Shown: in pieces, positions 15,155 through 57,768 of the stretch | Numbering within the stretch: position 1 is the first letter of the stretch | Layout: each line of letters opens with the position of its first letter | Origin: Tribonema minus | Taxonomy: Eukaryota; Sar; Xanthophyceae; Tribonematales; Tribonemataceae | Assembly (NCBI GenBank): GCA_017506865.1 | Contig: JAFCMP010000553.1 | Location: 248,001-312,000 of the forward strand | Direction of reading: 5' to 3' | Length of the DNA: 64,000 nt | The notes under the pieces: generated by a model | What the model was told of the DNA's origin: nothing | The model's input: only the letters and a program-made list of their open reading frames with translations | Database searches by the model: none | Position numbers and translations under genes: made by a program

Positions 15155-15263
15155 TGCTGAGTTTACTGCTCTCAGTGTCTGAGGCCTCGCGATCGGCAAT
15201 TTCTCAAAGACCCGGAACTTGAAGTGCCTGCGGGTGGGCCGGACGGCCCTAACAGTACAGGGA

Positions 15264-31386: not shown

Positions 31387-32037
31387 ATGTACTGGCGCTG
31401 GCGCTGGCGCTGGCGCTGCCGCTGCCGCTGCCGCTGCCGCTGCCGCCGCCGCTGCCGCTGCCGCCGGCGCTGCCGCTGCCGCTGCCGCTGCCGCTGCCGC
31501 CGCCGCTGCCGCTGCCGCCGCCGCTGCCGCTGCCGCTGCCGCTGCCGCTGCCGCTGCCGCTGCCGCTGCCGCTGCCGCTGCCGCTGCCGCTGCCGCTGCC
31601 GCTGCCGCTGCCGCTGCCGCTGCCGCTGCCGCTGCCGCTGCCGCTGCCGCTGCCGCTGCCGCTGCCGCTGCCGCTGCCGCTGCCGCTGCCGCTGCCGCTG
31701 CCGCTGCCGCTGCCGCTGCCGCTGCCGCTGCCGCTGCCGCTGCCGCTGCCGCTGCCGCTGCCGCTGCCGCTGCCGCTGCCGCTGCCGCTGCCGCTGCCGC
31801 TGCCGCTGCCGCTGCCGCTGCCGCTGCCGCTGCCGCTGCCGCTGCCGCTGCCGCTGCCGCTGCCGCTGCCGCTGCCGCTGCCGCTGCCGCTGCCGCTGCC
31901 GCTGCCGCTGCCGCTGCCGCTGCCGCTGCCGCTGCCGCTGCCGCTGCCGCTGCCGCTGCCGCTGCCGCTGCCGCTGCCGCTGCCGCTGCCGCTGCCGCTG
32001 CCGCTGCCGCTGCCGCTGCCGCTGCCGCTGCTGCTGC

Positions 32038-32088
<51 letters not shown>
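31387..32088. repeat. Long (GCTGCC)n array ending in (CTG)n
   Basis: About 640 bp of nearly uninterrupted GCTGCC hexamer, with a few CCGCCG interruptions confined to the first 140 bp. A switch near 32030 leads to about 50 bp of pure CTG trinucleotides. Read forward it would encode alternating Cys-Arg. Read in reverse it encodes Gln-Arg repeats inside a minus-strand frame that starts at 32192 with an ordinary N-terminus (MDELSNLDGAGQHHPQAQQQ). Whether that frame is expressed is unknown. Confidence 0.97.
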
Positions 32089-33180: not shown

Positions 33181-36100
33181 TCCCGTCTTCGAATCGGGTC
33201 AGGCGCATGATCGCAGCGATAGGCCTGAGGATGCTGCCAGCGCAGCCGGACGGCGCCTCGAGGTGGAGGCGACAGACATACTGTCGACCTTGTCCGCAGC
33301 AGGGGCGGGGAAGGCAGGAGGGCTGGACGGCCTACGCTATGAACACCTCTTGATGGCCGCTGGGCCTGGTGCACCAGTGAAAGCAGCCACCCGCCCCGTG
33401 GGCAGTGCCTCGCCAGGACTAGCTGGTGATTCAGAATCGGATGTGATGGAATCGGCATTCGCCCATTACCTGGCCAAGGTGTTCACGACGCTGCTTGTTG
33501 AGCCCGAACTGCTGCCGGAGCAATCGCAACGGCTTCTCCGCGCCGCGGCCCTCTCAGGCATAGGACAGAAGCGGCGTCCGATCGCCTGCTCCAGTGTCTG
33601 GCGCAGACTCCTCGGGTCCACAGCGGCACGGAGTGTCAAGGGCAAAATATCGGGGCTGCTGGCCTCCATGTCGCAGTTTGGCGTAAGATACCGGTCTGGC
33701 GTCGAGCATGTGGCAGCGCGCGCGCGCGTGTGGCACGAGCTGTATGGCACCACAATCCAGCTGGACTGTGAGAACGCATTTAACAGTGTGGATCGCGCCG
33801 CCATTGTGCGGGGACTTATGCTCTTCTGTCCGGAGCTGCTCCCGCACTTTGATTCCGTATACTGTGGTGACACTGCCCCAGAGATGCGAGTGGAGGTGAA
33901 CGGTGAAGCTCGCATTATCTGCTCCCACCTAGGGTGCCAGCAAGGGGACCCTCTAGGGCCGCTGTACTTTGCAGTGGCAGCGGCCTTCCTACTCTTCTAC
34001 CCTGATGGAGTGAACGCGACGCCCGGCAGTATGCCGGCCTACGGCCACAGCACAGCGGAACCGCCAGCCCCGCACTGCGCTTTCCTGGATGACGTCAACG
34101 TGCTGCAAGCTGCCTACTTCGACGATGCAGCGGCCGCTGGGGTGGCAGAGGTGATCCGTCGGCTTGCGGCAGGGGGCCTACGCGTTCGACCAGACAAGTT
34201 GCTGGCCATCGCTGCGCGGCACAGTGTTTGATGAAGCGGCCAGAGCACGCCTGCGCGCCCTTGACATACCGTTTGTGGACGCCACCATGCCAGAATCCAG
34301 TCAGGGCTTTACGTCGGTCGGGGTACCGGTAGGGCACCCAGCCTATGTGCATGCTGCCATGAGCAAGCATCTTGTTGACGCAGGGACATGGCGATTGTCG
34401 TGGCAGCTAGCTGGAATGGCGCGGCATCACCTACAGGCAGCACAGTTCATTCTGCGCAGGTCACTGACGAAGCGCATGGGCTTCTTAGCTCGGGTCGTTG
34501 ACACGGCTTTGAGTGAGACATGGCTGCACGCATTTGACGGGTTCTGTGCATGGACGCTTGAACGCATGCTGCACCTGCACGGCTGCGCTACCGTGGCAGT
34601 CATGAAGTCACACCTGCTGGCCGCCTGCACTGCTGGTGACAATGAGGAAGCCAGCAGTGGCAGCGTGCTGTTATTGCCGCGCTTGGGCCCGCCAGAACTC
34701 ACGGACATCGCAGTGCCACTGCGGGCGTCACGGTTGCCGGAGCGACGAGGCGGTCTGGGCATGCTGCTTTTGGGGCTACTGGCACCAGCCGCATACACGG
34801 CCCAGGCATGCACAACACTGCGGCCTGCAATAATTCATGCCACTGTGGCAGCAGGGGCCCTGAGACTCGGCACTGACGAACACGGCGCAGTCACCTGGTT
34901 CACGCAGCACTCATGCGCAATACGCGAGGACCAGGGACTGCCGCCAATCATCGAGACCGTGCGACGCTCTACGCGAGCGCTGACAGCTGATGGCGGCGAA
35001 AAATCACGCACAGCTGTGGCCGAGCAGCTCCCAGCATCGTTACTACGGTGGCAGCAGATACGACGGCCGCAGCGTCGACGCTCCCCACTGCGGTGCAAGC
35101 GATCTACGCCGCAACTGCCGTCACGGAGACGGGGACCACTGAGCCAGCCCCACACACCCACGGCATTGTGCCTGGTGCCGAGGCGGCCGCTGCGGCGGCG
35201 ACCGTACCTGGCCCTCAAGCCGCTGCCGCGGCTGCCTCTTCCACGCCCGCTAAAACACAAAGTAGCGCGGAAGAAAGCAGCTGCAGCGGCGGGCAGGAGG
35301 ACGACGACGACGACTGGGAGGCCTATGCTGACGAGATCTGCAGGAAGGTAGTGCCCCGCCGCCGGCGCGGTCACTTCACGCACGGACTACAAGCCGGCCT
35401 TTCAAATGTTCTTCGACGTCAATACGAGGACTGCCTGGTGGAGGACCTAGAGGCTGCCTCGGCTGGTGCCGTGGGCAAGCCGACGCAGGCTACACTTATT
35501 GGTGACTCGCGTGACACCAGCCGCCGCCGCCAACAGGCTAGCGCGCGGGTCCTGGCGCAGCTGCGCAGCCAGCGTGCGTCCGGGGCAATGGCGTGGATGA
35601 GCGTGCCACCCGCTGCCAATGACCTCCCGGGTGCGGCGCCCATGTCCAGTATGGCAGCAGCCACGATGATTTTGGTTGCGATCTTTATAGACGGGTGGGG
35701 CATACAGGGCGAGGTATGCCCATGGCGGTGCAGTGACGTGAGCCCCACCTCCACGCATGCGATCAGCTGCCCCAGCCAGCACATACGGGGGCACAACGCG
35801 ACACACACTGCCCAAAAGCGGTGCCTACAGCGCATCTTGAGACAGCACCATGTCTCTATTGTCCGCAATGAGGACGCTAGCGTCTTCAAGGTACCGGGGT
35901 ATCGGGCGGACACAGTCATTGACCCAGGGTGTCTGCACTTTAGCAGTGCATACCGTAACAAGGGAATAGTGCTAGACACAAGTGTGCGCGCGCCCACAGC
36001 GAGCTCGTACCTGACAGGCAAAACGAATGCCTCGAACACGGACGGCTATGCTGCTGGGGTGGGGGAGGACGCGAAGGTCAAGCACCACACCGGCACCTTG

Positions 36101-36391
36101 ACGTCATCTTGGGCTTTTGTGCCATTCGTGCAGGAGTCGTACCGACGGCTGGGCAAGCAGACAAGCCTTTTTGTTAAGGAGTTGGCAATGCACTCAGCAC
36201 TGTGCTCAGGGGGGGGGAAGGCAGATGTGTTACGCAAGGCCGGGTTAGCTAAGCGTCAGATCCACATTGAGCTGAGCATATCGCTGGCGCGGGAGTTGGC
36301 GGAGCGCATCATGGCATACACACGTGGAGCGCGAATGCTGGGCTGTGTTTCGGCGCCGGTATCCAAACTCCTAGGGCACAGCGCAGACTAG
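33181..36391 (+). pseudogene. RT + restriction-like endonuclease ORF of family B, two frameshifts
   Basis: The first frame starts inside the RT at the motif GKAGGLDGLRYEHLL, which copy 1 lacks, and includes LDCENAFNSV, QQGDPLGPLY and FLDDVNV. A 2-base deletion near 34213 and a 1-base deletion near 35050 (both relative to copy 1) move the frame and then restore it. The C-terminal part carries CPWRC...HAISC and YRADTVID...GIVLDTSV, ending at TAG 36391. It has CGA where copy 1 has a stop. So each copy is broken at different places while the shared sequence remains near identical. Confidence 0.85.
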
Positions 36392-36440
36392 GCTGCTGCG
36401 TTGACGCAAGCTTTTCGATTGCATAGGCAACCCGGCCTCC

Positions 36441-36861
36441 TGTCGTGAAGCGGCATCTTCGCGTGCATGAGGATGATAGTTGCATGTCTTGGTGGTAGCA
36501 CGCCTTGGGTGGCAAGGGCTCAATTGGAGAGTTGAGCTCGTATCTTGCTACAAGTCACCTCAAGAATGATGGCAGTGCTCAGCTCATGCTGCCGTCATGT
36601 GCTTATTTTGCTGCTGTCATGTGCTTATTGGTTTGTAATCACTTCGACACCTGTAAAACCATGCTATAAGCCTTAGCGCCTTGCTCTGCTTGTACTTGCC
36701 AACCATGGTGGCCTACTTGGGAGTTAGGGGGCACACCCTTTCTCACGGCACACGGGTCATTGCTGGGTCGAGGTAGGAGCGGGTCAGGTAGTCAACAGCG
36801 ACTGGTAGCTACACACACGGCATACACACACACAGGCAACTGGCGCACCCCAGTTCCCACA
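36441..36861 (+). repeat. 5' LTR (421 bp)
   Basis: Starts TG and ends CA, and matches 49244-49652. It carries a roughly 22-bp partial duplication (GTCATGTGCTTAT repeated near 36595-36630) that the 3' LTR lacks, and it lacks a 10-bp insertion present in the 3' LTR. Substitutions are very few, indicating recent insertion. Confidence 0.93.
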
Positions 36862-37348
36862 TTGGCAACCGACAGCAGGTTGTTGAGCCTGCCGCCTAGG
36901 CTGGCGTCCGCGTGCTTGGGCGAGCGAGCAGTAATCCGGCTGATTTCCGAATTTCCGCGGCTGCATATCTTCGGCACCAGCGAGCGACAGCGACCCTTCT
37001 TGTCGCTGCTGGCGCTCCTGCGGCGTTCTTATACGTCTGCGGGAGCCGCCTTGCGTGGCGAACCGTCCATAGCGGCTGTGCGCAGCGTGTGCGCTCTCTT
37101 TCTTCTGCTTCAAGTTCCTCCTGGGGCTCGGAGAGGTGCGAGGTGAGGCACTGCTGACCACGTGCTAACGACGGGTCACGCAGGTCTTGTTCTACTAAAA
37201 CTACTTCGCTCAGGTTTCGTCCACTTCGTTTGGGTGTGCTGTGGTAAAGCACTTGCTTCGCCGTCGTTGCATCAGCTTCGACGCCGGGGGGGAATCTTTG
37301 TCACAGCACTAAACAAGCAAGGTTCGAAAGTTTGGCCAAGCAGTGGTA
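36862..37348 (+). other. Leader with candidate primer-binding site
   Basis: Directly after the LTR, TTGGCAACCGACAGCAGG provides a TGG at 36863-36865, as expected if a tRNA 3' CCA end primes reverse transcription. The priming tRNA was not identified. The rest of the leader has short ORFs only. Confidence 0.45.
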
Positions 37349-40300
37349 ATGGAGCAAGCTGGAGTTGATGCGTTTGAGCAGGGCAGTGCTGGCTTTGAGG
37401 AACAGCGTGAGGTACCTAGGGAAGTAGGCCCGCTGAGGAGGTCGGATTCGATGACGACCTCGAGAGGGACGGATGCGGATGAACGCCATGCCCTGCTGGA
37501 CAAGGTAGCGTTGGTGAAAGATGCTGGGCAATATCGTGCAGGCAGCGAACCGTATAAGTTGCTTGAAACAAAGGAGATCGAGGATAAGATTCGCCTATTC
37601 TGGCGGGAGTGCAGGTACCCCGAGAATTACTTGCAAGGCAGGCAGGAAGCTGTAGCTGACTTGAGGGAGAGGGACAAGCTTAACAACTTCTGGAATGTCC
37701 ACATGCGCACAGTTGAGAAGGGCGTACGAAACCCATATCATGCAGGCGATTTGATAGTAGTGCTGCAGGCTGTGCCGCAGAAGCGGGCTTTGGACAAGTA
37801 TGTCATGTCCATGGGCATGGTGGGACGGGATGCAGAGGGTGTCATGCACATTGAAGGAGTAGACGCGCTGAACCCAGTCAACACGCCGCGCAAACCCCTA
37901 GTTCTGCAGGAAGAGTCGGGGATGGACAGGTTGAGAGTGTGGAGGCCTGCTGGCTATGAGTGGGCAATATACCACCGTGACGCTAATCTACTAAGTCAAA
38001 CTGCGATGACAGAGATTGTGCAAGTGGCACCAGCGTGGGCGCAACCTAAAGGCCGATTCCCCCGGCACCACAAGATGGGCGACTACGTCACCGTTAGTGC
38101 TGAGGAGCGATTGCTTCTGGTGCCGACTCATACGCTCACACCATTGGTGCTCCCCAAGGGCGCACAGGTCAGGTTTGCGCTCGCAGCAGGTGATAAGCGG
38201 ACTCGCTTTGGCACCGTCGTGGAGGACTTTGTTGCTGCCTCAGAGAAGCTGTTTGTCAACCACTTGGATGCAATCAACCCGTATGTGTGGGTGCGAGACA
38301 ACGACGGGGGTCGCACTTGGCAGGTGCCAGTGTCAGAACTCGACTTGAGGGGGGATCCATGGTGGTCACGTCCGGTGCTGCCCGTAGCGCCATTCAAGGG
38401 CGAAGGGTGGAACTTGTGGCCTGGGCCCACACTGGCCTGGCTCGTAGAGAATGAGGAGGACACCTCCGTGGCCCTGTCCATCAAACCCGCTAGGCTGCGT
38501 TGGGGGATTCCAAACTACGCCCGCAAGACTGGTAGGACTATGACGATTGAGCATGTGCCAGTGCGTGCGGAATTCCTGTTCAGTGGGTGGCAGCAGGACA
38601 AGCGCAGTCCCGCGCCGGTGCTGAGGGTGAAAGATAGCGCGATAGCACCAAATTCTGGGTGGGAAGTGAGGCAGGCAATGGGTGGCAGCAGTGCGCAAGG
38701 GGAGCGGGCCGGTACAAGTGCGCACGACGCTGAAGTTGAAGTTGAGCCGCAGCGCAAGCTTAAGCCTCCTCCAGGACAACCAAGTAGTGCACGCTCATCG
38801 CTTGGGCAGCGCCAGAACGCTGAAAGCGGTAGCGGTGGGGATGGTGACGATGGTGACGCGCGCAGTACACGCTCATCGCTCAGACAGCGCAAGAACGCTG
38901 CAGGCGGTGGCGGTGGCGGTGGTGGTGATGACGATGATGACAGTTCAGACACGGATGCTGATGCGCGTCACGACAGGTCCTCGCGTAACCGCAGTAGAGA
39001 TGCAAGAGGCGGGAAGGGCGATAGGCCTCCGCGGCGTGCGCAGGGCAGATCAGGCGGTGGGGGTGGTGATGACGGCGGTTCGTCAGGAGATGGCGGCGGT
39101 GTTGAGGAGGATAGTGAGGGCAAGAGTGAAGTTGAAGTTGATGCCCTCGCCGACAACGCAGAGTTTGGCGCAAAGTCGGGGACTCACATTGTTGCCACGC
39201 AGGTCATCAAGGAAATCAAGGGCATTACGCACCCCACGCTGTACTTCAGCGAGGAGCCGCCAGATGCTAACACCGAGTACAAGAACGTTGAGAACAAGGT
39301 TGTGAGTCCGGACTCTGTGACGTGCATCATGTCAGAGTGGTTGAGCTCTTGCGAGAGTCGTGTAGTGGCAGGCGGGCAGCGCATACCGGGGCCTAGGTCG
39401 AAGGAAAGGACATGCCCAGGCTTCATTGTTGTGCTGTGGCATCAGGCTCTGTCCACTCAGCTGCGCAAACGCATCCATGCCTGGCAGAGCACCAACTGTG
39501 AAGATGACAACCTGTCTGGTGAGCAGGTGCAGAAGTTGAGGTTGTACTTGCTTGAGCTATACAGTGAGTCAATGCAGCGCGGCAAAGCCGTGAGCAAGTT
39601 GAAGCGGTTGGTGTTGGAGGCAGGTGTAGGAGTAGTGGAGTTCCTCCTGGACTATGGCAAGATGTTGGACTTCACGCTGCAGAAAGTGGAGAGGCGTACC
39701 AAATCACTGTACCGCGAGCGTTACATCTGGGGGTTGCTGGGAGTTTTTGAACGCCCCTCAGATGCCAAGGAGCGGGTAGCAGCGTTCAAGAAGAAGTTGG
39801 TGGAATACGTGAACATGTTGGAGCAAGGGCAGTCAGAGAATGTGAAGCTGTCGCAGTTGCGTGCTGACTTGGAGTTGAAGGAGAAGAAGGTGGCAGCTAA
39901 CAAGAGCCTCAGTGTGCATGCCTATCTGGCCAAGGAGAAGAAGTTGGACAAGAGACGCTCTCCTGATGCATACATGACTGACCCAATGGCATCGCAGGGA
40001 AACGATGACGGCAGCGCCGAAAGGCCTCTCGCTATGCCTGTTGCAGGTGATGAGGGCGCTGCAGGCCTGCCTTCTCAGCTTGCACCTCTGCAGGAGGGCC
40101 TCACGGCGCTCAACAACTCCATGCAAATGCTGCAATCTCATCTGCAGCAGCGCGACAGCGATGTCAACCAGCGCTTTGATCACTTCTCGCAGCGGTTCGA
40201 TCAACTCGCCGCTGCACCGCGTAGGCCAACAGACCAGGGGTATCGCAGTCCATGGAGCGACCAGCGCCGCGGCGGCGCTTACAATGCGAACACTCGCCAA

Positions 40301-43300
40301 GGCCCATATGCCGGCGGTAGCGCTCAGCGCTACCCCGGCCCAAGTGTCGCTAACTACTCTTCGTTGAGCGCTGCGCATCCCAGCACACTTGCGCAGGGCC
40401 TGTCAGCACTGGCGATGCTGCTTGGCAGTGCCGCCGGCGGTGGCGGCATCGACGGCGGCGCCGCACGACTTCTACCAGCGGTCCACCACCTGGCAGGGCG
40501 CGTCGCGGAGGGCGGCATCTACGAGTTCGAGCCCTCAATGTACTTCGCTGTGGACCCAGGTGCAGGTGATGTATGTGATTTGTGCTGCCCTGATGAGTTT
40601 GGACGTTTTGCTGCCTGGTGTGGATTTGAGGGCGGCGCTGATGTGGCGGAGGTAAGTTGCCTGGTCTGTGTCACGGGCGCACAGCCAATCAGCAGTGCAC
40701 CAGTTGCGCGGACCATGATCCTGGCGGTGGAGGCAAAGGTACATAGGGTCTTGGACGCAATCGTGCACCTGGACTCGTGCGCCGGATGCAGTGTCATGCA
40801 ATTCCGCGCATACTGCCTGCTGTTGCGTAGGCTGAAAGATGAGGATCCGCAGAAGGCAAAGGACTTGGAGCGGTCGCAGCGCCAGCCGCAGTATAAGGCG
40901 ATAAGGGGCGTGGGGCGTCACTTGGTCGCCGTCATGTTCATGGTGTCACTTGAAGTTGAACTGGCAGGTGTGCAGATGGCAGTTGACTTCCACGTCAGTG
41001 ACAAGGTTGAGCCGCAGTTCCTGATCAGCTGGGAGGTGCTGACACGTATGCGTCTGGACATCTTGGGCAGCAAGAATCCGGTGCTTGTGCAGCACCCTGA
41101 CAAGCCTGACAAGGCCGCAAAAGCGCTGAGCCCGCAAGACGTAGATAGGATCAGGGACTCGTGGCGCAGCGCCAACCAAGGTGGAGGTAGCAGAGGTGCC
41201 GGTGTGCAGAGTACGTTGTGGTCGCACTTGCGGCAGCCAGCGCAGGAGCCGACGGTGTGCAGGTACGAGTTTGGCTCTTTGCCCGCTGAGTTGCTGCAGG
41301 AAAGCCCGCTGGCAGAGGGGGAGCCGAGTCCAAAGTTTGTGCTAGGCAATGGTGCAGCACCCGTGCAGGAGCGTGTAGAGGCACCAATTGACTTGGACAA
41401 CTTGGCTGATGAGCGCATCATAAGTGTTGAGCAGTTGCCGCCTGAGGGCTGGGAGCTGGATGTGGTGTGCGCGTCCGCTGAAGCAAGCAGCGACGCGGAG
41501 CGCGAGTCTGTAGAGTCAGACTCAGACTTGGTCACAGGCGCAGGTGAGATATATGACACAGGCAGTGATGTCGAGCAATGGTGTGGTGACAGGTGCGCAG
41601 TTGAAGTTGACGCTGATGAAGTGCCTGAGGAAGTTGAAGTTGACACTGCAGATGAGGCGTCTGTTGATGGTGAAGTTGATGTTGCAGATGGGGCGCCCGA
41701 AGTTGAGAGTGGCGCTTCAGTTGAGCCGCCAGATACAGTTGAAGTTGAAGTGGCAGTTGGTGAGCTAGACGACAACAGGCGCTCAGGACATTACCCGAAA
41801 GGGGGGGGCGTAGAGTGGGTGGTGGCTGATTGCCACCCTGAGCGCTGGGGACTGATCTCAGCGGTGGAGCGCGGTGAGTACCCTGATGTGCCAGACATGC
41901 AAGTGCCTAACCTCAAGGTGGTAGATCTGGGGTGTGGCATAGGTAGCGCTGTAATGGGAGCGCTCATGGCAGGCGCACAGGTGCAGCTGGCGGTGGATGT
42001 TAGTGAAGAATACGCTGCCATCTTTCAACGCTCTCACCCGCATGTGCCGTTCATCTTGGGAGACTACACTTCGGAAGCCGTGTGGAGGAGGATTGACGAG
42101 GTGGACCCTGACATGGTGCTGGTCAGTACTCGGTGTGAAGAGGTAAGCGCCAACAAGTACAGACCGAAGGGTAGCCAGGTGGTGGAGACTGAAATTACTG
42201 AACTCACCCCAAAGCTTGTGCAGAAAGCAATTGAGCACAATGTGAAAGTGCTCTTGCTGGAGAATGTGCCACAGCTGGGCACCACCGTCAATGGCGTGCA
42301 CGCGCTGCAGGCCGCGCACGCGGCAGAGTACCACATACTCTCGTTTCTGCTTGCAGGCGAGGATGTGGGCTTCCCGAACTTGCGCAAGCGCGTCTTCTTC
42401 CTGATGGTGCGCGGCGATGAAGTCGTTGTTGACGCGTTGCGCCGCGTGGCAGGCTCACTGGAGGCGGTGAAGCACCGCAGAGGCAGCCTACAGGTAACCC
42501 TACAAGAGATGTGGGGCATCAACCATCCTGTGTACGTGCTGCCGCCCCGCAATGCGCAGGCACGCTGGACGCATGACTCAACCACCAGTGTTGTGACGCT
42601 CGTCGCCCGTCACTTTCATGCCTTTCATGAGCCCGCGCAGGCTGACTTGCGCAATGCCGATCTGCGCTACCCGGTGGAGCAGCGCTATACACCGTCTCAA
42701 GCTGACTTGCTGCGTGCTAACGGTCTGTGGTGGTTGAACGTGCCGCCTGGTGTGACGCAGTCAGTGCTCGCCAAGGGCAGTGGGCAGATACTTCTTGCGC
42801 CTGTCATGTCCTTCATCTTGCGCACCCTGCGTACTGAACCCGCGCTGTTTGACAGGCAGCACCAGCGCGCGCGCATCGAGCCGCGCATGCTGGAAGACGG
42901 CATCTTTGTGCAGACGCTCGGCCCATATGACTTGCCTGATGATCACCCATCTGCAGGCCGCGCCGTAGGGCCGCTGGTCATGTCCTCGTTGCTCGACAAC
43001 ATGCCCGTGCTCAGAATGCTGAAGAACATGCAGGGCCGTGCCATGGGAACGGGGTACAACAACAGCCGCGAATCCGGCGCGCAACCGCCGGCAGGTGCCG
43101 CGGCGGCAGCATCAAGCGACGCAGAAGGCGCGCAAACCCAAGGCAGCGACAGCGACGCCGCGGCGGACAGCGAAGATGACACGGATGGTCATCGTAGTGG
43201 AAGGGCGCGCAAACCCGGTACCCTCACAATGATGCAGGCGTATGAGCTGGCGATGCACAGAGTTGACCAACGCTTTGCTAACACGCATGTGTCAGAGAAT

Positions 43301-46300
43301 CCGGAGATTGCCGCTGCCGCCGATCATGATTTGCCTGGCTGGGATAACGTGGTGCTAGTAGCTGAGCAAGGTGCAGTGCAGCGACGTTGCGCGTCAGTAT
43401 ATCTCGCGCGAAGGTACGCGCGGGTGCAGCCCACGAAAGATGGTATGGTTGTAAAGGTCATGTGGCGCCATATGCTTGCGCCAGGCAACTACGTGCTTGA
43501 AGGCCTGGCTGATGACAAAGGGCACTGGGCCGTGCGCAGGCAACGTGTGTTGGTTGAGCCCATGCAACAGACAGCGAGCATTAATTTGACGCTTCTGGAA
43601 ACCACAAGCAGGTTGAAGTTGGGAGTGAAGTTAGGATACCTGCACTTGTTGGATGAAGATTTGTGGAATCAAGAGGCCTCAAAGCATGAGGCAGACATCG
43701 CACGCAACTTGCTACACTTGTCGTCGAAAGTTGAAGACACGTCGACTCGAGCTGCACTAGCGTCGCGCTTGGCCGCGCTGCGTAGAAATGAGCGCCTGGC
43801 CACTCTCTGCTTCATGGTTGCAGCGGGATGTCTGACTCCGGCGGAAGCCTCTTCAGTTGGGGGCGACGAGCTCAAGGCGGCAGCAGCAGCAGACCTATTT
43901 GCGGAGGCTTGCTTGCATACTCACCCCACTCGCTCTGACGCTCCCCAGGAAAGTACCACTGCCTCCTGCACCGCCGCTTGCGCAAGCTCAACTGCCGCAT
44001 CTGCACCAGGGGCTGCTACAACGGAGACAACAGCGCCAGCCAGCCCTACCCCAAGAAGTGAGACGCCGAGTGGTGACGCTCCCAAGATGCGACCCCCGGC
44101 GGAACCGCCGCCGACAGGTGAGCCCTGCACTGCCGTCCCTAACGCTCAAGCTAACGCTAAGGCAGAGGTGAAAGTTGATGTTGAAGCACAACCTGGTGTA
44201 GGCGCCGGCGCTGAGCTGGAAGAGCAATTAGACGAGGAAGCAGTGCAACAAGCGCGGGAGTTGGAGTGGTTGGCCGCGTTCAAAGTTGACAAGATGGAGC
44301 ACCTCACAAACAGACAACGGACTGAATTGGCTGAATTGTTGCGTAAAATGGCTCGCAACGGCATTTTCTCATTTGATGGCAAACCAGGCAAGGTTACGTT
44401 GGTGCGTCATCACATCGATGTAGGGGATGCTAGGCCAGTGCGTGCGCGCTTGCGCAAGTACAGCCTCAAGGAACTTGAAGTTCTTTGGAAGGAGATAGAC
44501 TTTTTGTTGAAGAAGGGTGTGATTGAACCGTCAAACTCTCCGTGGAATTCACCACTCGTGATATTGCCTAAGCCGTGTGGTGGGCTGCGAGTAGTGCAAG
44601 ACCTGAGGGCGGTTAATCAACTGGTAAAGGAGAAGGGTGGGGGCCAGGATGGTTTTCCCCTGCCGCGCATTGACGAAGTGCACTCAGTGCTCAGCGGGTC
44701 AGAGTGGTTTAGTTCCATGGATGCAGTGGCAGGCTTTTGGCATGTTGAACTTGATAGGGAGTCCAGGCCTGTAACCGCGTTTCAAACCAAATGGGGCTGT
44801 TACCAATGGAAAGTAGGACCAATGGGGCTGATGAATATGCCGTCTACATTTCAGCGTTTGATGCAACTTGCAATGGGGCATGATGCTCTTTGGGTATACG
44901 CGCTTGTGTATGTGGATGATATTCTAGTTTTCAGCAAAACTTTTAAAGAGCACATGCGGCACCTTGAGACTGTGTTGAGCCGCATGATCTCAGTAGGAAT
45001 TAAGCTTAAGCCTAGCAAGTGTCATTTTGCAATGAAGGAGGTGAAGTTCCTGGGGCACGTGGTGGATGCTAGTGGCAGGCGTGTGGACCCCACTAAAGTT
45101 GAAGCTATTGACAAAATCCCCTTGCCATCCGACTTGCATGATGTGCGGTCATTCCTATGCATGGCCGCATATTACCGCCAGTACATTGAGCACTTCTCTA
45201 CTATTACGGAGCCTTTGGTGAACCTGACGCGCAAGGGTGTGCCGTTTGTGCTCTCTGATGACTGCATCGCTGCATGGAGCGTGCTGAAAGAAGCCTTGAA
45301 AACATCCCCTGTATTAGCGCATCCCGATTTAAAAGGCATATTGAATGGCACAGTTAAGTTAGTGCTGCAGACAGACGCTTCTGACTACGGTCTGGGGGCA
45401 GTGTTGACGCAGATTTGCCCAGTCAATGGTGAGCATCCTTTGGGGTACTATAGCAGGACATTAAAAGGGGCAGAACGGAATTATGGGACATACGACAGGG
45501 AGGCATTAGCAGCAGTGGAAGGTATACATTACTTCAGACAGCTGTTGCACAACGGAAAAACCTTCACGCTCCAAACAGACCACTCAGCGTTGGCTCATCT
45601 GATGGGTGGCTCTGAACCGCGCACTAAGCGCCAAGAGCGATATATCTCTGAACTGCAGCAGTATAACATGGACATTGTGCACAGGCCAGGAAAAGAGAAT
45701 GGTAATGCTGATGCTCTCTCTCGAATCAAAGAAGGTGCATATGAACTGCTGTCTGCAGGTGTTGCCTTTACTAACGCTGCGTGTGCCTCACAGCGTGGGG
45801 GCGGGAGGCAGTCAACACCTAGCATAGCAAAAATTTTGCGTTTCGACCCCTCGCGCGCGTTGCGCACCCCGCGTGCGCCGGTAGCTGCTGCTCCACTCCG
45901 TTCGTGTGCAGGGCTTGATGAAGTTGAAGATGCAAGTTCAAGCACAAGCGGCATCGAGATAGCATCAGTGAACATCACCGCCACCGGCGTAGCGCAGCTC
46001 TGGCCCAAGGACGACGATGAGGACGCGGACCAAGAACCGACGCTCGACGATGGGGGCGACTACGACAGTGATGAGGAGTCCGGTACCCCAGTAGAAAATA
46101 GTAGTAGCAGCGCTCAACACTCGCACTCTCATGTTCAGCCAAGCGACATAGTGACTGCCCTGGTAGATGACCCAGTGTTGGGAAAGGTAGTGAAGTACAT
46201 GACTACTCAAGCAGGTGGTCCCCCTCACGGTTTGTCACCTAAGGAAGTGGAAGAGGCTCGGTCGTATGAGAAGGCAGGATATTATTTGCGTGATAAGAAG

Positions 46301-47998
46301 CTGTATTTTGCAGCAGGGGGTAGGTCACATAAGATGAGCTCTGATGTGCTAGTACTACCAAAAGTTCTGCGAGGACGTGTACTTGACGAATGTCATGATG
46401 GCGCGCTGGGAGGTGGACATAGCGGCTTTGCACGCACATATGACAAGCTGAGACGCAGGTACTTCTGGCCAGGAATGTACTCAGATGTTTTTCAGTGGGT
46501 GCTCACGTGCCTGGCTTGCCAGAAGCGAAAGTCAAAACGAGACACGCGCGTGCGCATTCACGGGTTTGGGGATATCGATTTGCAGCATGCATTCCAGTTA
46601 GTAGGATTTGATATAGTGGGGCCATTCCCAAAAACACGTAGGGGCAATAGTTACATTGTGGTTTTCACAGACTATCTGACAAGGTGGCCTGAGGCCTTTG
46701 CAATACCAGACAAGTCAGCTGCAACGGTTGCGCGGATCATTGTGAGTGAAATCATACCTAGGCATGGGTGTCCGCAAATGTTTCTAAGCGATAATGCAAA
46801 AGAGTTCAGGGGCATGTTAATGAAAGAGCTGACTCGCTTGCTGAGCATTGAGCAGCGGTTCACATCTCCATATCACCCAGCCTGCAATGGTCTGACAGAA
46901 CGCACCAATGGCACACTAGTAAACCTCCTCTCTATGATGGTAGAAGACAACCAGAGGAACTGGGATACCGTATTGCCACATGCCCTATTCAATCATCGAG
47001 CTTGCACTAATGCTACCTACAGTATGTCACCATTTCGCATGCTGTACGGTCGTGAGCCAATACTGCCATTTGAGGCCATGATAGGAGATTTGAAAACCTC
47101 AAAGTTGCCGACGAAGTGGAAATCAGCAGCTGAACATCTTCAGGCAATTCACGAGCTCATTAAGGAAGGGCACAGACTTGTTCAAACTTCGCTGCAGGAG
47201 CAGGAAGAACGGTTACGCACAGAGGCAGCGCGTGAAAAGGGGTATGCACGTAGGTTTCAGCCGGGAGATAGCGTTTTAGTTCATTATCCGCCAGTGCGCA
47301 AGGGGCTTAGCCGCAAACTGAAAGCTGAGCGTTGGTTGGGTCCATGCACTGTTGAGAGGCGCATACCAGGCCTTGATACTTATGTCTTGAAAGCAGCACA
47401 TGCGGGTCAAGTCATGCTCAAGTACATTCACTGCAGCAGACTCAAGTTGGTATCTGAAAGACGAACTGCAGCACCGCTTCCACCGAATGTACCTGATTTA
47501 TCTACTGCTGACAAGGCCCGCGCACCTGTCGATCCAGCTGATGCACCATCAACTTCAACTTCAGCTTCAAGTCGCTCGCAGTGCCCATTTGCCAAAGGTG
47601 ATATTGTGAGAGTCTCAGTAGCAGCATGGGTTGAGGGCTCTACAGATAGTTGTGATGGTTATGTGGTGCATGTGACAAATGATGGTACAGTGGAGTTCAT
47701 CACCCCTGTAGACGCAGCAGAGCCAGATGTTTTGGTAGAGCAGCTGTCAGGGTTTGTGAGTCGCTACAAGGGCCGCTGGGTCAAAGGCGATTCTCACTTC
47801 ACTAAACTCATCTACAGCCTCCACTTCTCTTCCCCTTTTTTCACTGAGCGTGTTGGCAAATTCTGGCAACCCCCTGCGCAGGCAGTTGCTGTAATGTTCA
47901 TTGACAAAGTCCAAATTCTTGCATCAGCTGTCATTTTCAAACACTGGTACTCGGCAGTCTGTACAACGTGCTGGGCGCGCAGGTCCGGTCACTCTTAG
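37349..47998 (+). CDS. Gag-Pol polyprotein with embedded cytosine-5 methyltransferase (about 3,549 aa)
   Basis: ATG 37349 is the first ATG after the in-frame stop at 37310. Residues 1-640 are unrecognised, with a Gly/Asp-rich stretch at about 450-610. About 650-880 is gag-like, helical and charged. The aspartic protease has D1142 in LDSCAG (usual DSGA). The C5 methyltransferase, about 1520-1820, has motif I DLGCGIGS (D1526), motif IV STRCEEVS (C1596; usual PCQ is RCE), ENV at 1638-1640, GFPNLRKRVFF as motif VIII, and KGSGQILLAPV near motif X. The RT, about 2370-2540, has YVDD at 2521-2524. RNase H starts LQTDASDYG (D2676). Integrase has an HHCC finger near 3012-3056 and a DDE triad D3088, D3148, E3184 (last spacing 35). 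An unrecognised tail follows. No stops or shifts interrupt the frame, so the element may be functional. Confidence 0.92.
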   Translation: MEQAGVDAFEQGSAGFEEQREVPREVGPLRRSDSMTTSRGTDADERHALLDKVALVKDAGQYRAGSEPYKLLETKEIEDKIRLFWRECRYPENYLQGRQEAVADLRERDKLNNFWNVHMRTVEKGVRNPYHAGDLIVVLQAVPQKRALDKYVMSMGMVGRDAEGVMHIEGVDALNPVNTPRKPLVLQEESGMDRLRVWRPAGYEWAIYHRDANLLSQTAMTEIVQVAPAWAQPKGRFPRHHKMGDYVTVSAEERLLLVPTHTLTPLVLPKGAQVRFALAAGDKRTRFGTVVEDFVAASEKLFVNHLDAINPYVWVRDNDGGRTWQVPVSELDLRGDPWWSRPVLPVAPFKGEGWNLWPGPTLAWLVENEEDTSVALSIKPARLRWGIPNYARKTGRTMTIEHVPVRAEFLFSGWQQDKRSPAPVLRVKDSAIAPNSGWEVRQAMGGSSAQGERAGTSAHDAEVEVEPQRKLKPPPGQPSSARSSLGQRQNAESGSGGDGDDGDARSTRSSLRQRKNAAGGGGGGGGDDDDDSSDTDADARHDRSSRNRSRDARGGKGDRPPRRAQGRSGGGGGDDGGSSGDGGGVEEDSEGKSEVEVDALADNAEFGAKSGTHIVATQVIKEIKGITHPTLYFSEEPPDANTEYKNVENKVVSPDSVTCIMSEWLSSCESRVVAGGQRIPGPRSKERTCPGFIVVLWHQALSTQLRKRIHAWQSTNCEDDNLSGEQVQKLRLYLLELYSESMQRGKAVSKLKRLVLEAGVGVVEFLLDYGKMLDFTLQKVERRTKSLYRERYIWGLLGVFERPSDAKERVAAFKKKLVEYVNMLEQGQSENVKLSQLRADLELKEKKVAANKSLSVHAYLAKEKKLDKRRSPDAYMTDPMASQGNDDGSAERPLAMPVAGDEGAAGLPSQLAPLQEGLTALNNSMQMLQSHLQQRDSDVNQRFDHFSQRFDQLAAAPRRPTDQGYRSPWSDQRRGGAYNANTRQGPYAGGSAQRYPGPSVANYSSLSAAHPSTLAQGLSALAMLLGSAAGGGGIDGGAARLLPAVHHLAGRVAEGGIYEFEPSMYFAVDPGAGDVCDLCCPDEFGRFAAWCGFEGGADVAEVSCLVCVTGAQPISSAPVARTMILAVEAKVHRVLDAIVHLDSCAGCSVMQFRAYCLLLRRLKDEDPQKAKDLERSQRQPQYKAIRGVGRHLVAVMFMVSLEVELAGVQMAVDFHVSDKVEPQFLISWEVLTRMRLDILGSKNPVLVQHPDKPDKAAKALSPQDVDRIRDSWRSANQGGGSRGAGVQSTLWSHLRQPAQEPTVCRYEFGSLPAELLQESPLAEGEPSPKFVLGNGAAPVQERVEAPIDLDNLADERIISVEQLPPEGWELDVVCASAEASSDAERESVESDSDLVTGAGEIYDTGSDVEQWCGDRCAVEVDADEVPEEVEVDTADEASVDGEVDVADGAPEVESGASVEPPDTVEVEVAVGELDDNRRSGHYPKGGGVEWVVADCHPERWGLISAVERGEYPDVPDMQVPNLKVVDLGCGIGSAVMGALMAGAQVQLAVDVSEEYAAIFQRSHPHVPFILGDYTSEAVWRRIDEVDPDMVLVSTRCEEVSANKYRPKGSQVVETEITELTPKLVQKAIEHNVKVLLLENVPQLGTTVNGVHALQAAHAAEYHILSFLLAGEDVGFPNLRKRVFFLMVRGDEVVVDALRRVAGSLEAVKHRRGSLQVTLQEMWGINHPVYVLPPRNAQARWTHDSTTSVVTLVARHFHAFHEPAQADLRNADLRYPVEQRYTPSQADLLRANGLWWLNVPPGVTQSVLAKGSGQILLAPVMSFILRTLRTEPALFDRQHQRARIEPRMLEDGIFVQTLGPYDLPDDHPSAGRAVGPLVMSSLLDNMPVLRMLKNMQGRAMGTGYNNSRESGAQPPAGAAAAASSDAEGAQTQGSDSDAAADSEDDTDGHRSGRARKPGTLTMMQAYELAMHRVDQRFANTHVSENPEIAAAADHDLPGWDNVVLVAEQGAVQRRCASVYLARRYARVQPTKDGMVVKVMWRHMLAPGNYVLEGLADDKGHWAVRRQRVLVEPMQQTASINLTLLETTSRLKLGVKLGYLHLLDEDLWNQEASKHEADIARNLLHLSSKVEDTSTRAALASRLAALRRNERLATLCFMVAAGCLTPAEASSVGGDELKAAAAADLFAEACLHTHPTRSDAPQESTTASCTAACASSTAASAPGAATTETTAPASPTPRSETPSGDAPKMRPPAEPPPTGEPCTAVPNAQANAKAEVKVDVEAQPGVGAGAELEEQLDEEAVQQARELEWLAAFKVDKMEHLTNRQRTELAELLRKMARNGIFSFDGKPGKVTLVRHHIDVGDARPVRARLRKYSLKELEVLWKEIDFLLKKGVIEPSNSPWNSPLVILPKPCGGLRVVQDLRAVNQLVKEKGGGQDGFPLPRIDEVHSVLSGSEWFSSMDAVAGFWHVELDRESRPVTAFQTKWGCYQWKVGPMGLMNMPSTFQRLMQLAMGHDALWVYALVYVDDILVFSKTFKEHMRHLETVLSRMISVGIKLKPSKCHFAMKEVKFLGHVVDASGRRVDPTKVEAIDKIPLPSDLHDVRSFLCMAAYYRQYIEHFSTITEPLVNLTRKGVPFVLSDDCIAAWSVLKEALKTSPVLAHPDLKGILNGTVKLVLQTDASDYGLGAVLTQICPVNGEHPLGYYSRTLKGAERNYGTYDREALAAVEGIHYFRQLLHNGKTFTLQTDHSALAHLMGGSEPRTKRQERYISELQQYNMDIVHRPGKENGNADALSRIKEGAYELLSAGVAFTNAACASQRGGGRQSTPSIAKILRFDPSRALRTPRAPVAAAPLRSCAGLDEVEDASSSTSGIEIASVNITATGVAQLWPKDDDEDADQEPTLDDGGDYDSDEESGTPVENSSSSAQHSHSHVQPSDIVTALVDDPVLGKVVKYMTTQAGGPPHGLSPKEVEEARSYEKAGYYLRDKKLYFAAGGRSHKMSSDVLVLPKVLRGRVLDECHDGALGGGHSGFARTYDKLRRRYFWPGMYSDVFQWVLTCLACQKRKSKRDTRVRIHGFGDIDLQHAFQLVGFDIVGPFPKTRRGNSYIVVFTDYLTRWPEAFAIPDKSAATVARIIVSEIIPRHGCPQMFLSDNAKEFRGMLMKELTRLLSIEQRFTSPYHPACNGLTERTNGTLVNLLSMMVEDNQRNWDTVLPHALFNHRACTNATYSMSPFRMLYGREPILPFEAMIGDLKTSKLPTKWKSAAEHLQAIHELIKEGHRLVQTSLQEQEERLRTEAAREKGYARRFQPGDSVLVHYPPVRKGLSRKLKAERWLGPCTVERRIPGLDTYVLKAAHAGQVMLKYIHCSRLKLVSERRTAAPLPPNVPDLSTADKARAPVDPADAPSTSTSASSRSQCPFAKGDIVRVSVAAWVEGSTDSCDGYVVHVTNDGTVEFITPVDAAEPDVLVEQLSGFVSRYKGRWVKGDSHFTKLIYSLHFSSPFFTERVGKFWQPPAQAVAVMFIDKVQILASAVIFKHWYSAVCTTCWARRSGHS

Positions 47999-48037
47999 TG
48001 CGGCGGGAGCAGCTGGATGCTTAGCGCACAGTGAGTT

Positions 48038-48781
48038 GTGGCGCGTATGACCACGGGCCTGAGAGCGCGCTCGTCAGGTGACGGCGGCTGCCCACATTTC
48101 CAAGACCAGTTGGCAGCGCTCAGCGCCAGCCCGATGATACCAGTCCGAGACACCCTTTCGCAGCGCGAAGCGCTAGCCCAGCGCGTCACCGCCCTGCCCT
48201 CTCCACAACAACACCACGTGCTGGCGGCGGATACCATCACTGACATACAACACCGCCGCCGCACGGACCTCTTCAACACCCACACCGGCATGCTGGCAAT
48301 AGGCATCAATCTTCAACATTCTACTTCACCCGCTGCCGCAGCCGAGCAACTTCATCAACAACTTCAAGAAGCCATGACGACACTTAAACTTCTACTTCAA
48401 GATGCCCTAGCGTGTGTGAGCGCGATGCCACATGGCGCGGAGCCTGCTGCGGCGAGTTGCCGAGCAGTGCTTGGGCATGGACGCGGGAGACAGCCGAGCC
48501 CTGCTCAGGGCTCGACTTGGAGCAGCAGGAGGGAGCCGCTTTTTTTTTTATGGGTCGTCAGCCTGGTTGGTGGCGCGGGAACTCGGGCGGTCTTGCTGCG
48601 AGACGTACCGCAGCCGAACTTCCAAGCCTTTTCCTGTGAAGGAAATGCGGGGGAGATTAGGCGCCAGGTGTACAGTTTTCTCCATACAGGTGCAAATGCG
48701 TGTCCACCAGCGCGCACCTCAGGCCATCCACACTATGCTATGATGGGCCTACACACAAAGGTTGTGGTGTCGGGGTTGTAG
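48038..48781 (+). CDS. Unassigned ORF downstream of pol inside the LTR element
   Basis: A 247-codon frame lies between the polyprotein stop and the 3' LTR. It has no recognised domain, and an overlapping frame (48432-48743) also shows mixed protein-like composition (MARSLLRRVAEQCLGMDAGD). A T-run at about 48540-48549 lies between them and could be a slippage or sequencing artefact. In LTR elements this position sometimes holds an env-like or accessory gene, but there is no signal peptide or clear membrane anchor here. Confidence 0.3.
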   Translation: MARMTTGLRARSSGDGGCPHFQDQLAALSASPMIPVRDTLSQREALAQRVTALPSPQQHHVLAADTITDIQHRRRTDLFNTHTGMLAIGINLQHSTSPAAAAEQLHQQLQEAMTTLKLLLQDALACVSAMPHGAEPAAASCRAVLGHGRGRQPSPAQGSTWSSRREPLFFLWVVSLVGGAGTRAVLLRDVPQPNFQAFSCEGNAGEIRRQVYSFLHTGANACPPARTSGHPHYAMMGLHTKVVVSGL

Positions 48782-49243
48782 TGGGGGGGGGGGTGCGTGC
48801 ACGCATTAGGCGGATGCGCAGTAGTGGGGGAGTGAGCGTACACGCTGCGCTGTAGTGTGTGTTGCTTGTAGGCAGGCAGTTGCCGGGGCTGGGAATGGGC
48901 CGTGTGGTGACCTTTATGAGGTACAGCATTAGAGGCATGTAACCACACACCAGCAGGGTTATTTCAGCGCCACGAAGTCAACATGTGGTGCTGCCGCCGC
49001 CGCCGCCGGTGCCGCCGCCACCATGCTGGCCGCTGTCGCCGCCCTTCCTGCTGGTGATGTGCGATCAGGTGTTGCAAACGCTTCGACGACACCTGGTCGT
49101 GCAGCAAAGTGGTGCCAGTGTGCTGTGCTAAATGGGGCCGCTTCGTGGTCCATTAACAGTAGGCCGGGATTGCAGTAGTTCCCTATGCACGCTTCACTGT
49201 TATTTGATCCAGACGCGCGTTGGGCGTCATGGATGGGGGCGCA

Positions 49244-49652
49244 TGTCGTGAAGCGGCATCTTCGCGTGCATGAGGATGATAGTTGCATGTCTTGGTGGTA
49301 GCACGCCTTGGGTGGCAAGGGCTCAATTGGAGAGTTGAGCTCGTATCTTGCTGCAAGTCACCTCAAGAATGATGGCAGTGCTCAGCTCATGCTGCCGTCA
49401 TGTGCTTATTGGTTTGTAATCACTTCGACACCTGTAAAACCATGCTATAAGCCTTAGCGCCTTGCTCTGCTTGTACTTGCCAACCATGGTGGCCTACTTG
49501 GGTTATTATGGGAGTTAGGGGGCACACCCTTTCTCACGGCACACGGGTCATTGCTGGGTCGAGGTAGGAGCGGGTCAGGTAGTCAACAGCGACTGGTAGC
49601 TACACACACGGCATACACACACACAGGCAACTGGCGCACCCCAGTTCCCACA
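49244..49652 (+). repeat. 3' LTR (409 bp)
   Basis: Matches the 5' LTR with the indels noted there. The preceding purine-rich GGATGGGGGCGCA (49231-49243) is the likely polypurine tract. The sequence after it, CTCCCTTGGGCC, resumes family B copy 2. Confidence 0.93.
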
Positions 49653-49685
49653 CTCCCTTGGGCCCTTATAAATACAAGTCCATAC

Positions 49686-53110: not shown

Positions 53111-53440
53111 CGAATCTTTTGTCCCATAATGCCAAAAGCAAAATGGGCAAGGGACGACGCTCTCCTGATTTCTGCATTCGCCAGAAATATTCAACTTCAA
53201 TATTGAGCTTTAGTCATTTCCCGAATCTTTTGTCGGAAATAGTTTCCACAGAGCAAAAGCAAAATAGGCGAGGGACGACGCTCTCCTGATTTCTGCAATT
53301 GCCAGAAATATTCAATATTGAGCTTTAGTCATTTACCGAATCTTTTGTCGAAAATAGTTTCCACAGAGCAAAAGCAAAATGGGCGAGGGACGACGCTCTC
53401 CTGATTTCTGCAATTGCCAGAAATATTCAACTTAAAATTC
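53111..53440 (+). repeat. Subterminal tandem array, 3 units of 111-115 bp
   Basis: Units start CGAATCTTTTGTC at 53111, 53222 and 53337. Each contains TTTCCACAGAGCAAAAGCAA (degenerate in the first unit) and CAGAAATATTCAA. The same unit in the opposite orientation forms the array at 57311-57768. Inverted subterminal arrays of this kind mark the ends of a DNA transposon. Confidence 0.93.
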
Positions 53441-55617: not shown

Positions 55618-56687
55618 ACTCAGAAGCAGCCCTTACTCACATCTGTCGCCACCCGCTCTCCTCACAGTGTCCGCGTCCATAATTGGCGTGTGCCTTGATA
55701 CACCCTGAGAGCAGGCGGGCGTGGAAACGAAGGCCGGCAATAAGTTAAGTTTATCAGATGCAGACACCTGCAAGTGCGGCAGGTGGCAGGCGCTACTCGT
55801 GGTGCTGATATTGCATTGTTGCATTGGTTACCTTATTGCTTCAGGCACCAAAAGGCGTACGTACTGGTGCTGCTTGCAAAGTTCAAGTGTGTTTTGTGCC
55901 AAGAGTTGAAGTACGACGCTTGTGCTTTCTGTTGAAGTACGACGCTTGTGCTTTCTGTTGAAGTACGACGCTTGTGCTTTCTGTTGAAGTACGACGCTTG
56001 TGCTTCTGGGGTAGGCTGCTGCGCTGAGAGGGTTTGCTGACTAAGCTGCTGCCTGGGGAGGGTGCACTGCAGCCGGCGGCTGGAAGGAGTGCACTGCAGG
56101 TGAGTCTTGAGCTCACCCCGTGACAAAGTGTCAGATGTAAGCAATTTGGCAAGCCGCGGGTGGGAGGCTGCTTTCTGCTGCTGTTAAGGAGAGCTGCTGT
56201 CCTGCACTCGCACCGTTAAACATGACAGCAAAGCGATACGTCCCCTCCTGGCAACGTTATCACCATGTCGATAAAGTTGACGCCCGTGGCACACTGCTGC
56301 TGCTGTCGCTAAGGAGGCAGTTCACCACAAAGGAGCCACCTACGCTCGCCCCGTTATCTCTATCACCAATGTTGATACAGTCAATACGTGGTCCTGCTCA
56401 AGGCATGTGATTGAGCAGCGGCAGCGGCACTGATGGCCTCTGACGAGGCCGGATTACTCTGCAGTGCAAGTCCTGTGTTCGCCTCCTCAACTGTATCAAC
56501 AAGTTGATACGATCCGATACGCTGACCTACTGTGAGATTTGGTACATGTCCCGCTGATTTGGATGGCATGCGAGCAGTGCGGTGCCGCGCAGCACATGTC
56601 ATGCGCGCTGCACGTGCCCATGCCGTGACAGTCATCATCACCTATCACTTACATATACATAATGCTATTTGATGTACTCACGCGCAG

Positions 56688-57310: not shown

Positions 57311-57768
57311 TTCAAAGTTGAGGTTGAATATTTCTGGCAATTGCAGAAATCAGGAGAGCGTCGTCCCTCGCCCATTTTACTTTTGATCCGACTAAAGATT
57401 CGGGGATGGCCAGAACTTCAAAGTTGAGGTTGAATATTTCTGGCAATTGCAGAAATCAGGAGAGCGTCGTCCCTCGCCCATTTCGCTTTTGCTCTGTGAA
57501 AAGTAAATTTGACAAAAGATTCGGGGATGGCCAGAACTTCAAAGTTGAGGTTGAATATTTCTGGCAATTACAGAAATCAGGAGAGCGTTGTCCCTTGCCC
57601 ATTTTGCTCTTGCTCTGTGCAAACTATTTCCGACTAAAGATTCGGGGTTTGGCCTGAACTTCAAACTTGAGATTGAACATCTTTGGCAACTGCAGAAATC
57701 AGGAGAGCGTCGTCCCTCTCCGTTTTTGCTTTTGCTCTGTGGAAACTATTTCTGACCAAAGATTCGGG
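57311..57768 (-). repeat. Subterminal tandem array, about 4 units of 120 bp, inverted
   Basis: Units end in AAAGATTCGG near 57398, 57519, 57639 and 57761 and contain CAGGAGAGCGTCGTCCCTC and TTTTGCTCTGTG. They are the reverse complement of the 53.1 kb units. The array marks the right side of the DNA transposon. Confidence 0.93.

Follow-up and report, generated by a model that had tools for sequence, protein, structure and literature searches.

Capture of DNA methyltransferases (DNMTs) by algal retrotransposons has already been published (de Mendoza 2018, PMC5890265), as the original prediction for the locus described here had supposed; Dnmt3 is the type reported in Klebsormidium and in the DIRS elements of Symbiodinium. 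Ty3/Gypsy and DIRS elements encoding DAM/DCM have also been placed in stramenopiles, among other groups, by a review (PMC6338049). The proline of methyltransferase (MTase) motif IV is described as invariant, and a motif IV cysteine without it is predicted to be inactive (Henderson 2010, PMC2965745); the same source describes DRM3 and DNMT3L as catalytically mutated yet functional. The locus described here bears on the question of why transposons carry an enzyme class that silences transposons.

The window, the whole 64,000-nucleotide stretch of Tribonema minus DNA that was analysed, contains a 13.2 kb Ty3/Gypsy-type LTR element at 36441-49652 (Table 1). Its two LTRs, both TG...CA and differing by one substitution and by indels of 22 and 10 bases, are bordered by a short target-site duplication, the arrangement of an LTR retrotransposon. 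A single frame runs through Gag-like, protease-like, MTase, reverse transcriptase (RT), RNase H and integrase parts; the order RT-RNase H-integrase, with both H2C2 and rve present, is that of Ty3/Gypsy elements. The Gag-like part gave no Pfam match. No tRNA gene was identified for the candidate primer-binding site in a 15-base search, which returned five matching places, the window element included. Judged by its sequence, the window element is a young Ty3/Gypsy-type LTR retroelement with an inherited C5-MTase domain between protease and RT; to call it an intact recent copy, as was done at the outset, is fair with respect to the open frame and the LTRs.

Table 1. Features of the window element, in window coordinates, and positions of two delta elements found elsewhere in the genome
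Feature	Position	Strand	Remarks
Target-site duplication, left	36437..36440	.	CTCC, 4 bp
5' LTR	36441..36861	+	421 bp, TG...CA
Candidate primer-binding site	36863..36879	+	by eye, directly 3' of 5' LTR
Single open frame	37343..47998	+	3551 codons/aa from GTG; first ATG 37349
Retropepsin-like region	40730..41062	+	residues 1130-1240; DSCAG where DS/TGA is usual
Run of 8 G	41801..41808	+	just 5' of MTase
C5-MTase-derived domain	41912..42847	+	residues 1524-1835 (approx.)
MTase motif I	41924..41947	+	DLGCGIGS
MTase motif IV core	42128..42136	+	residues 1596-1598; Thr-Arg-Cys instead of Pro-Pro-Cys
MTase motif VI	42260..42268	+	Glu-Asn-Val
MTase motif VIII	42383..42391	+	Arg-x-Arg
Reverse transcriptase	44567..45061	+	Pfam RVT_1, residues 2409-2573
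RNase H	45254..45664	+	Pfam, residues 2638-2774
Integrase zinc-binding H2C2	46358..46534	+	Pfam Integrase_H2C2, residues 3006-3064
Integrase core	46592..46879	+	Pfam rve, residues 3084-3179
3' LTR	49244..49652	+	409 bp, TG...CA
Target-site duplication, right	49653..49656	.	CTCC, 4 bp
L065	C509:276300-281000		delta Gypsy element
L066	C224:910300-918000		delta Gypsy element

The order protease-MTase-RT had been proposed from the start. MTase and RT were placed by Pfam; the protease is the weakest call in the order protease-MTase-RT-RNase H-integrase, and it is only weakly indicated. A Pfam scan gave no match in the retropepsin-like region; its Asp is invariant in an alignment of five elements (A4), and the best match of a protease-region profile was to DDI1-type retropepsins (E 0.002). 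In two copies (L009 and L012) the G run at 41801-41808 is shorter by one G, a difference that shifts the frame between Gag-protease and MTase-Pol; it may be an assembly error, a polymorphism or a slippage site. The contig carrying small-subunit rRNA (C300, L064, by Rfam match) seems to miss single bases, and assembly error may likewise lie behind small frameshifts in copies. The rRNA has signatures that look stramenopile, and a green-alga reading was not supported; a pherophorin search was empty, with no control responding either, and carries no weight.

The MTase assignment itself was borne out. Run on the whole ORF, the DNA_methylase profile PF00145 matched residues 1524-1695 (E 1.6e-11, 44.7 bits with a cut-off of 22), which rules out a chance or mis-called motif and gives the proposed check against DNA methylase families a significant result; the three motifs that had suggested an in-frame C5-MTase between a protease-like region and RT, DLGCGIGS, LLENVPQ and GFPNLRKRVFF, begin at residues 1528, 1638 and 1676. 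The LTRs, the single frame and the many copies rule out a read-through host gene. The domain extends beyond the Pfam match to about residue 1835: motif X was reached in a 20-row alignment (A1, ten rows of which came from the protein database, P identifiers), and in hmmsearch A1 aligned over nearly its full length with Dcm and DNMT1 chains. For this reason 41912-42847 is a better span than the 41900-42830 given initially. The Gly of motif I, the Glu-Asn of motif VI and the Arg-x-Arg of motif VIII are invariant in all 20 rows; the motif X region is aligned but degenerate (GSGQ for GNAV), and the motif IV Cys is present in 19 rows, the exception being L045. The domain thus has the significant profile match and the motifs I, VI, VIII and X of the PF00145 superfamily.

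As to class, a profile of ten retroelement MTases from the genome itself matched DNMT2 (7.6e-26), M.HhaI (1.8e-17) and DNMT1 (6.5e-13) in PDB, and no DNMT3 chain was among the best 60 of the 65 PDB sequences matched. The window domain alone had DNMT2 as its best match among PDB sequences (E 1.3e-4), and a profile comparison of the retroelement MTases with the genome's own DNMT2-like exon (L004) gave 97.8%. By sequence, the retroelement MTases appear to resemble DNMT2/Dcm enzymes more than DNMT3; in these PDB matches the window domain was not closest to DNMT3 sequences. Homologues of the MTase region of the window polyprotein were absent at E 0.001 among 2408 candidates, and homologues of the domain of a related element, L046, among 8000 candidates scored. 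A viral source of the MTase was considered and set aside: searches of viral_contigs, each with six short exact patterns, found no relatives there for the window domain, the L002 protein or the L039 protein.

An RT search of the genome found eight places, the window included, with RT 97-100% identical to that of the window. A whole MTase match (99-100%) was present at six of these and a partial one (94%, on C279) at one; all seven were on the same strand as the RT and at the expected distance, while the eighth place, C157:1229863, is too near a contig end to tell its MTase state. Members identical in other respects and devoid of the MTase segment, which would have refuted the original prediction, were thus not found among the eight RT-matched places, C157:1229863 being unreadable there. 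The window element carries its DNMT in frame with RT, in its own polyprotein and in several copies, as expected of a DNMT-bearing retrotransposon. An internally deleted relative (L073, C541:590268-594452) has two LTR matches, with the 3' 3.1 kb at 98.6% identity.

A search with the LTR gave 41 matches, 24 of which are confined to the 3' half of the window LTR. In seven cases two matches on the same strand lie 3.0-3.5 kb apart; one such pair (L072, C512:225200-228800) encloses its own 602-aa frame, has otherwise no match to the window element, and is likely to be a non-autonomous element using related LTRs. Several other repeats were observed in the window. Two stretches, 15224-18253 and 33263-36391, lie ∼18.1 kb apart, both contain RVT_1 and have stretches that are 97-98% identical; a second repeat pair (7500-7799 and 24326-24625) has a 99% identical stretch. 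About 116 copies of CTGCCG (694 bp) at 31392-32085 leave frames open on both strands. A 26-bp tandem array at 1373-1451 reappears as its reverse complement 54 kb away (55905-56005), and the 115- and 121-bp arrays at 53133-53433 and 57390-57768 are apparently inverted relatives.

The description of a domain embedded in one element held for the window and understated what the genome contains. In a PF00145 search of 158 Mb in 554 contigs, 123 of 378 candidates were scored, all over the cut-off, which gives at least 123 matches. Four of the best matches were unlike the retroelement MTases: the DNMT2-like exon (L004) and three further C5-MTase frames, 367-390 aa long, that have the motif GFPCVGLS (L001, C223:936374-939871; L002, C223:701240-704740; L003, C181:38462-41956) and look giant-virus-like. 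The elements read, mostly picked for having MTase matches, make up four RT groups, in which the MTase occupies three positions: alpha (L039, L042), protease-MTase-RT with the protease placed by motif; beta (L040), MTase-protease-RT by Pfam; gamma, made up of the window element, L044, L045 and L046; and delta (L065, L066), RT-RNase H-MTase in one frame, followed by integrase in L066. In a metagenome protein (P0003), one frame contains both an MTase and a protease motif, hence this arrangement exists outside the T. minus genome. From these sequences, the window MTase is part of a large radiation of MTase-bearing elements and not a stray capture.

In the tree, a branch (91/82) separates 18 retroelement MTase rows, together with three metagenome proteins, from the database, DNMT2-like and L001/L002 rows; the reconstruction carries a long-branch warning, and as the reference set lacks DNMT1, DNMT3 and DNMT5 a single origin of these MTases is not proven. 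The delta MTase falls outside beta and gamma (97/91) in the larger tree and beside L041/L043 (86/87) in an 11-row tree, and the delta RT stands apart from the other groups. Exchange between lineages, or separate captures, is possible for delta on this sequence comparison.

The departure from canonical C5-MTases is at motif IV, where the window domain has Thr-Arg-Cys (TRC) and not Pro-Cys, a change that the original prediction had not mentioned. TRC is present in all six window-family loci with a whole domain (window counted) and in 20 of the 21 loci of the L044 family, the remaining one having THC; STRCE is common to the window family and all but one of the L044-family copies read. Over the 12 lineages read, seven retain Pro-Cys (L039, L042, L005/L007, L040, L006, L041 as Ala-Pro-Cys, and L046), four have Cys without Pro (TRC in the window and L044 families, SSC in L043, SNC in the delta elements L065/L066), and in one (L045) motif IV is deleted. 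By eye, the losses of Pro occupy three separate places in the tree. TRC is taken as derived, given the PPC of L046 on the adjacent outer branch. Of the 78 database relatives of L039, P0002 is without the motif IV region; the 77 others are readable, with Pro-Cys in 74, PSC in two and an apparent frameshift there in P0004, and TRC occurs in none of the 77. It could be thought that motif IV evolves faster than any other part of the domain; this was not borne out, as between the window and L044 the 11-residue core is conserved at 7/11 positions versus 85/150 in the rest of the domain. The wider motif IV loop is poorly conserved (13/33).

In the L045 family the stretch equivalent to window domain residues 98-121, catalytic Cys included, is absent in frame. 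A search with L045 found 27 copies at 98-100% identity, four of them in open frames of 3452-3455 aa, and the loop was absent at all six loci read (L037, L038 and L058-L061, where L038 is the L045 copy and L061 a decayed one with 3.5% DNA divergence). The match covered residues 1-411 in 11 copies and 28-411 in 16; an apparent split into two subfamilies was rejected, as the copies compared differ by G-run length near motif I and were not treated as biologically distinct. A G run longer than that at 41801-41808 is present within motif I of the loop-less family. The copies found, all counts being lower bounds, are more numerous for the loop-less family (27) than for the L044 family (20, near full length) or the window family (six whole domains). 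RT identity among the TRC and loop-deleted families is 88-92%; the RTs of canonical families are more distant from that of the window (about 60% for L046, about 36-38% for alpha). One genome thus has TRC and loop-deleted retroelement MTases on closely similar Pol, the canonical forms being found with Pol that is more distant. Should loop-less and canonical elements prove equally mobile, self-methylation would not be the purpose of the domain.

We put about equal weight for and against the reading that we prefer: that the active site of this C5-MTase-derived domain is non-canonical, that a non-catalytic role is at least part of the reason for its retention in the window element, and that it would carry out little or no canonical methylation. 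The ancestral domain, still canonical in other families, would have methylated new cDNA or its surroundings; that canonical families may methylate their own cDNA has some backing from yeast assays of Symbiodinium domains (PMC5890265). On the window branch the domain would be kept mainly for its fold, inside the Pol complex, where it might bind nucleic acid or SAM or partner another methyltransferase, by analogy with DNMT3L and DRM3. The TRC at all six whole-domain loci of the window family, the amplified loop-less sister and purifying selection on the domain (see below) favor this reading; against it are the retention of Cys, Glu-Asn and Arg-x-Arg in the window, the TRC with following Glu common to two families, and the occurrence of PSC in two database proteins. 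One could speculate further, and we do so tentatively, that a pseudo-methyltransferase is spread over the Gypsy radiation, with three or more Pol positions, the catalytic motif stripped in several lineages and the fold selected; such a DNMT3L/DRM3-like partner would bind DNA or SAM and steer active methyltransferases, those of the host or of other elements, to new copies.

A somewhat more doubtful reading is that of an active enzyme, which would still methylate cytosine, in cDNA or RNA, via the non-canonical motif IV and so tag its own copy, as the original prediction and de Mendoza 2018 propose. The catalytic Cys, the Glu-Asn and the Arg-x-Arg are retained. Because the window and L044 families have STRCE in common and the motif IV core matches the residues around it in conservation, the Cys in these families may still be used; the sharing of TRC and the Glu after it, despite near-saturated synonymous sites, suggests that the Cys is under constraint. 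In yeast, de novo CpG methylation has been shown for two SymbioDIRS-Dnmt3 domains (PMC5890265). Opposed to this, the Pro is lost and TRC is unmatched in the database set, and among the three gamma families near-identical copies are most numerous in the sister that lacks the Cys; also, methylation by the Klebsormidium Gypsy domain was not detected in yeast, a result that its authors consider inconclusive (PMC5890265).

The CpG data cut both ways for an active enzyme. In pairwise comparison of copies, transitions at CpG sites were in 1.8- to 5.5-fold excess over those at other C/G sites in all seven sets, with non-independent pairs and only one pair in three of the sets. The excess is 2.85 in the window family, 2.5 in the L044 family and 4.5 in the canonical beta pair L040/L053; but it is equally 4.5 in the non-canonical beta pair L043/L054, among the lowest (1.9) in canonical alpha, 1.8 in delta, and highest (5.5; four loci, one decayed) in the loop-less family. 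The excess fits host or trans methylation of the elements and does not track the motif IV state of the element itself; the loop-less family could be served in trans. Self-methylation was also sought as CpG depletion and rejected, as no element-specific depletion was seen: CpG observed/expected is 0.82 in the element interior versus 0.85 and 0.78 in the flanks, with 0.54 in the 421-bp LTR, and in eight other loci it is 0.69-0.99, unrelated to motif IV. The suggestion made at the outset that the element may methylate its own DNA copy was not supported, given motif IV without Pro, 27 near-identical loop-less copies and a CpG excess independent of the canonical motif.

We consider it improbable that the domain is a decaying passenger, left over from an old capture, on its way out and now without a role. 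Motif IV differs from Pro-Cys in five of the 12 lineages, the L045 MTase has no Pfam match at E 0.01, and MTase dN among the window, L044 and loop-less families is 0.23-0.34, four to five times the RT dN of 0.047-0.072. However, MTase dS in these three families is 1.42-1.61 (Nei-Gojobori), near saturation as in RT, and the resulting dN/dS of 0.16-0.22, read with that saturation in mind, is not 1; it indicates a domain that is constrained, though at a level four to five times below that of RT. When the pairwise dN was split, the smallest MTase branch value fell to the loop-less family (0.073, with 0.154 for L044 and 0.186 for the window), and the frame is open through the domain in the four long-frame loop-less copies. 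Five elements were picked by RT, with no MTase match in the PF00145 search: the domain is full-length in three (L069 being frame-broken), a remnant in one and absent in one broken copy, of which 6 kb were read.

Changes since the loop loss favor the preferred reading, marginally. Nonsynonymous and synonymous changes number 7:8 in the live lineage and 13:2 in the decayed copy L061 (Fisher p 0.050), with nine unpolarised codons set aside, several sites polarised by one outgroup only and one codon of mixed polarity counted with L061; by these sequences the difference in selection would rest on few sites. Least probable of all is a structural spacer or co-folding part, kept for Gag-Pol processing and not for MTase-like binding: the domain does lie inside one frame and the adjoining linkers are also long, but the segments with motifs I-III, VI-VIII and X have 0.59-0.86 identity versus 0.41-0.56 in two downstream linkers, as expected for a ligand- or DNA-binding fold.

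Compared with described systems, the window domain has partial counterparts. Sola1-1_Ec32 of Ectocarpus is likewise a transposon with a DNA MTase, believed to modify the sequence of the element itself; unlike the window element, it is a DNA transposon, and its MTase is predicted to make N4-methylcytosine or N6-methyladenine (PMC12477816). For the stramenopile elements of the review, the available text states neither the order of domains nor the motif IV state or class of the MTase with which to compare, and it does not separate adenine from cytosine MTases (PMC6338049). DNMT3L and DRM3 resemble the window domain in having lost the motif IV Pro-Cys with the fold kept, and OsDRM3 even in keeping Cys without Pro; they differ as host regulators of the Dnmt3/DRM family that are not retroelement-borne (PMC2965745), and that the window domain might work with a partner MTase is only an analogy.

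The literature searched yielded no description of a retroelement C5-MTase whose motif IV is altered or deleted, of a DNMT2/Dcm-like MTase in Gypsy, or of three Pol positions in one genome. SymbioLINE-Dnmt and SymbioDIRS-Dnmt3 of Symbiodinium are similar in that many DNMTs are retroelement-borne, the DIRS type having two domain orders; in contrast, they belong to other retroelement classes, their key DNMT residues are reported as conserved and two of the DIRS domains are CpG-active (PMC5890265). KnitGypsy-Dnmt3 of Klebsormidium nitens shares with the window element a C5-MTase in a Gypsy-type Pol frame and purifying selection on the domain (PMC5890265). According to the same source its MTase is Dnmt3-type with key residues conserved and its repeats are DIRS-like, whereas the window element has ordinary LTRs, a DNMT2/Dcm-like MTase (by the PDB matches given above) and an altered motif IV.
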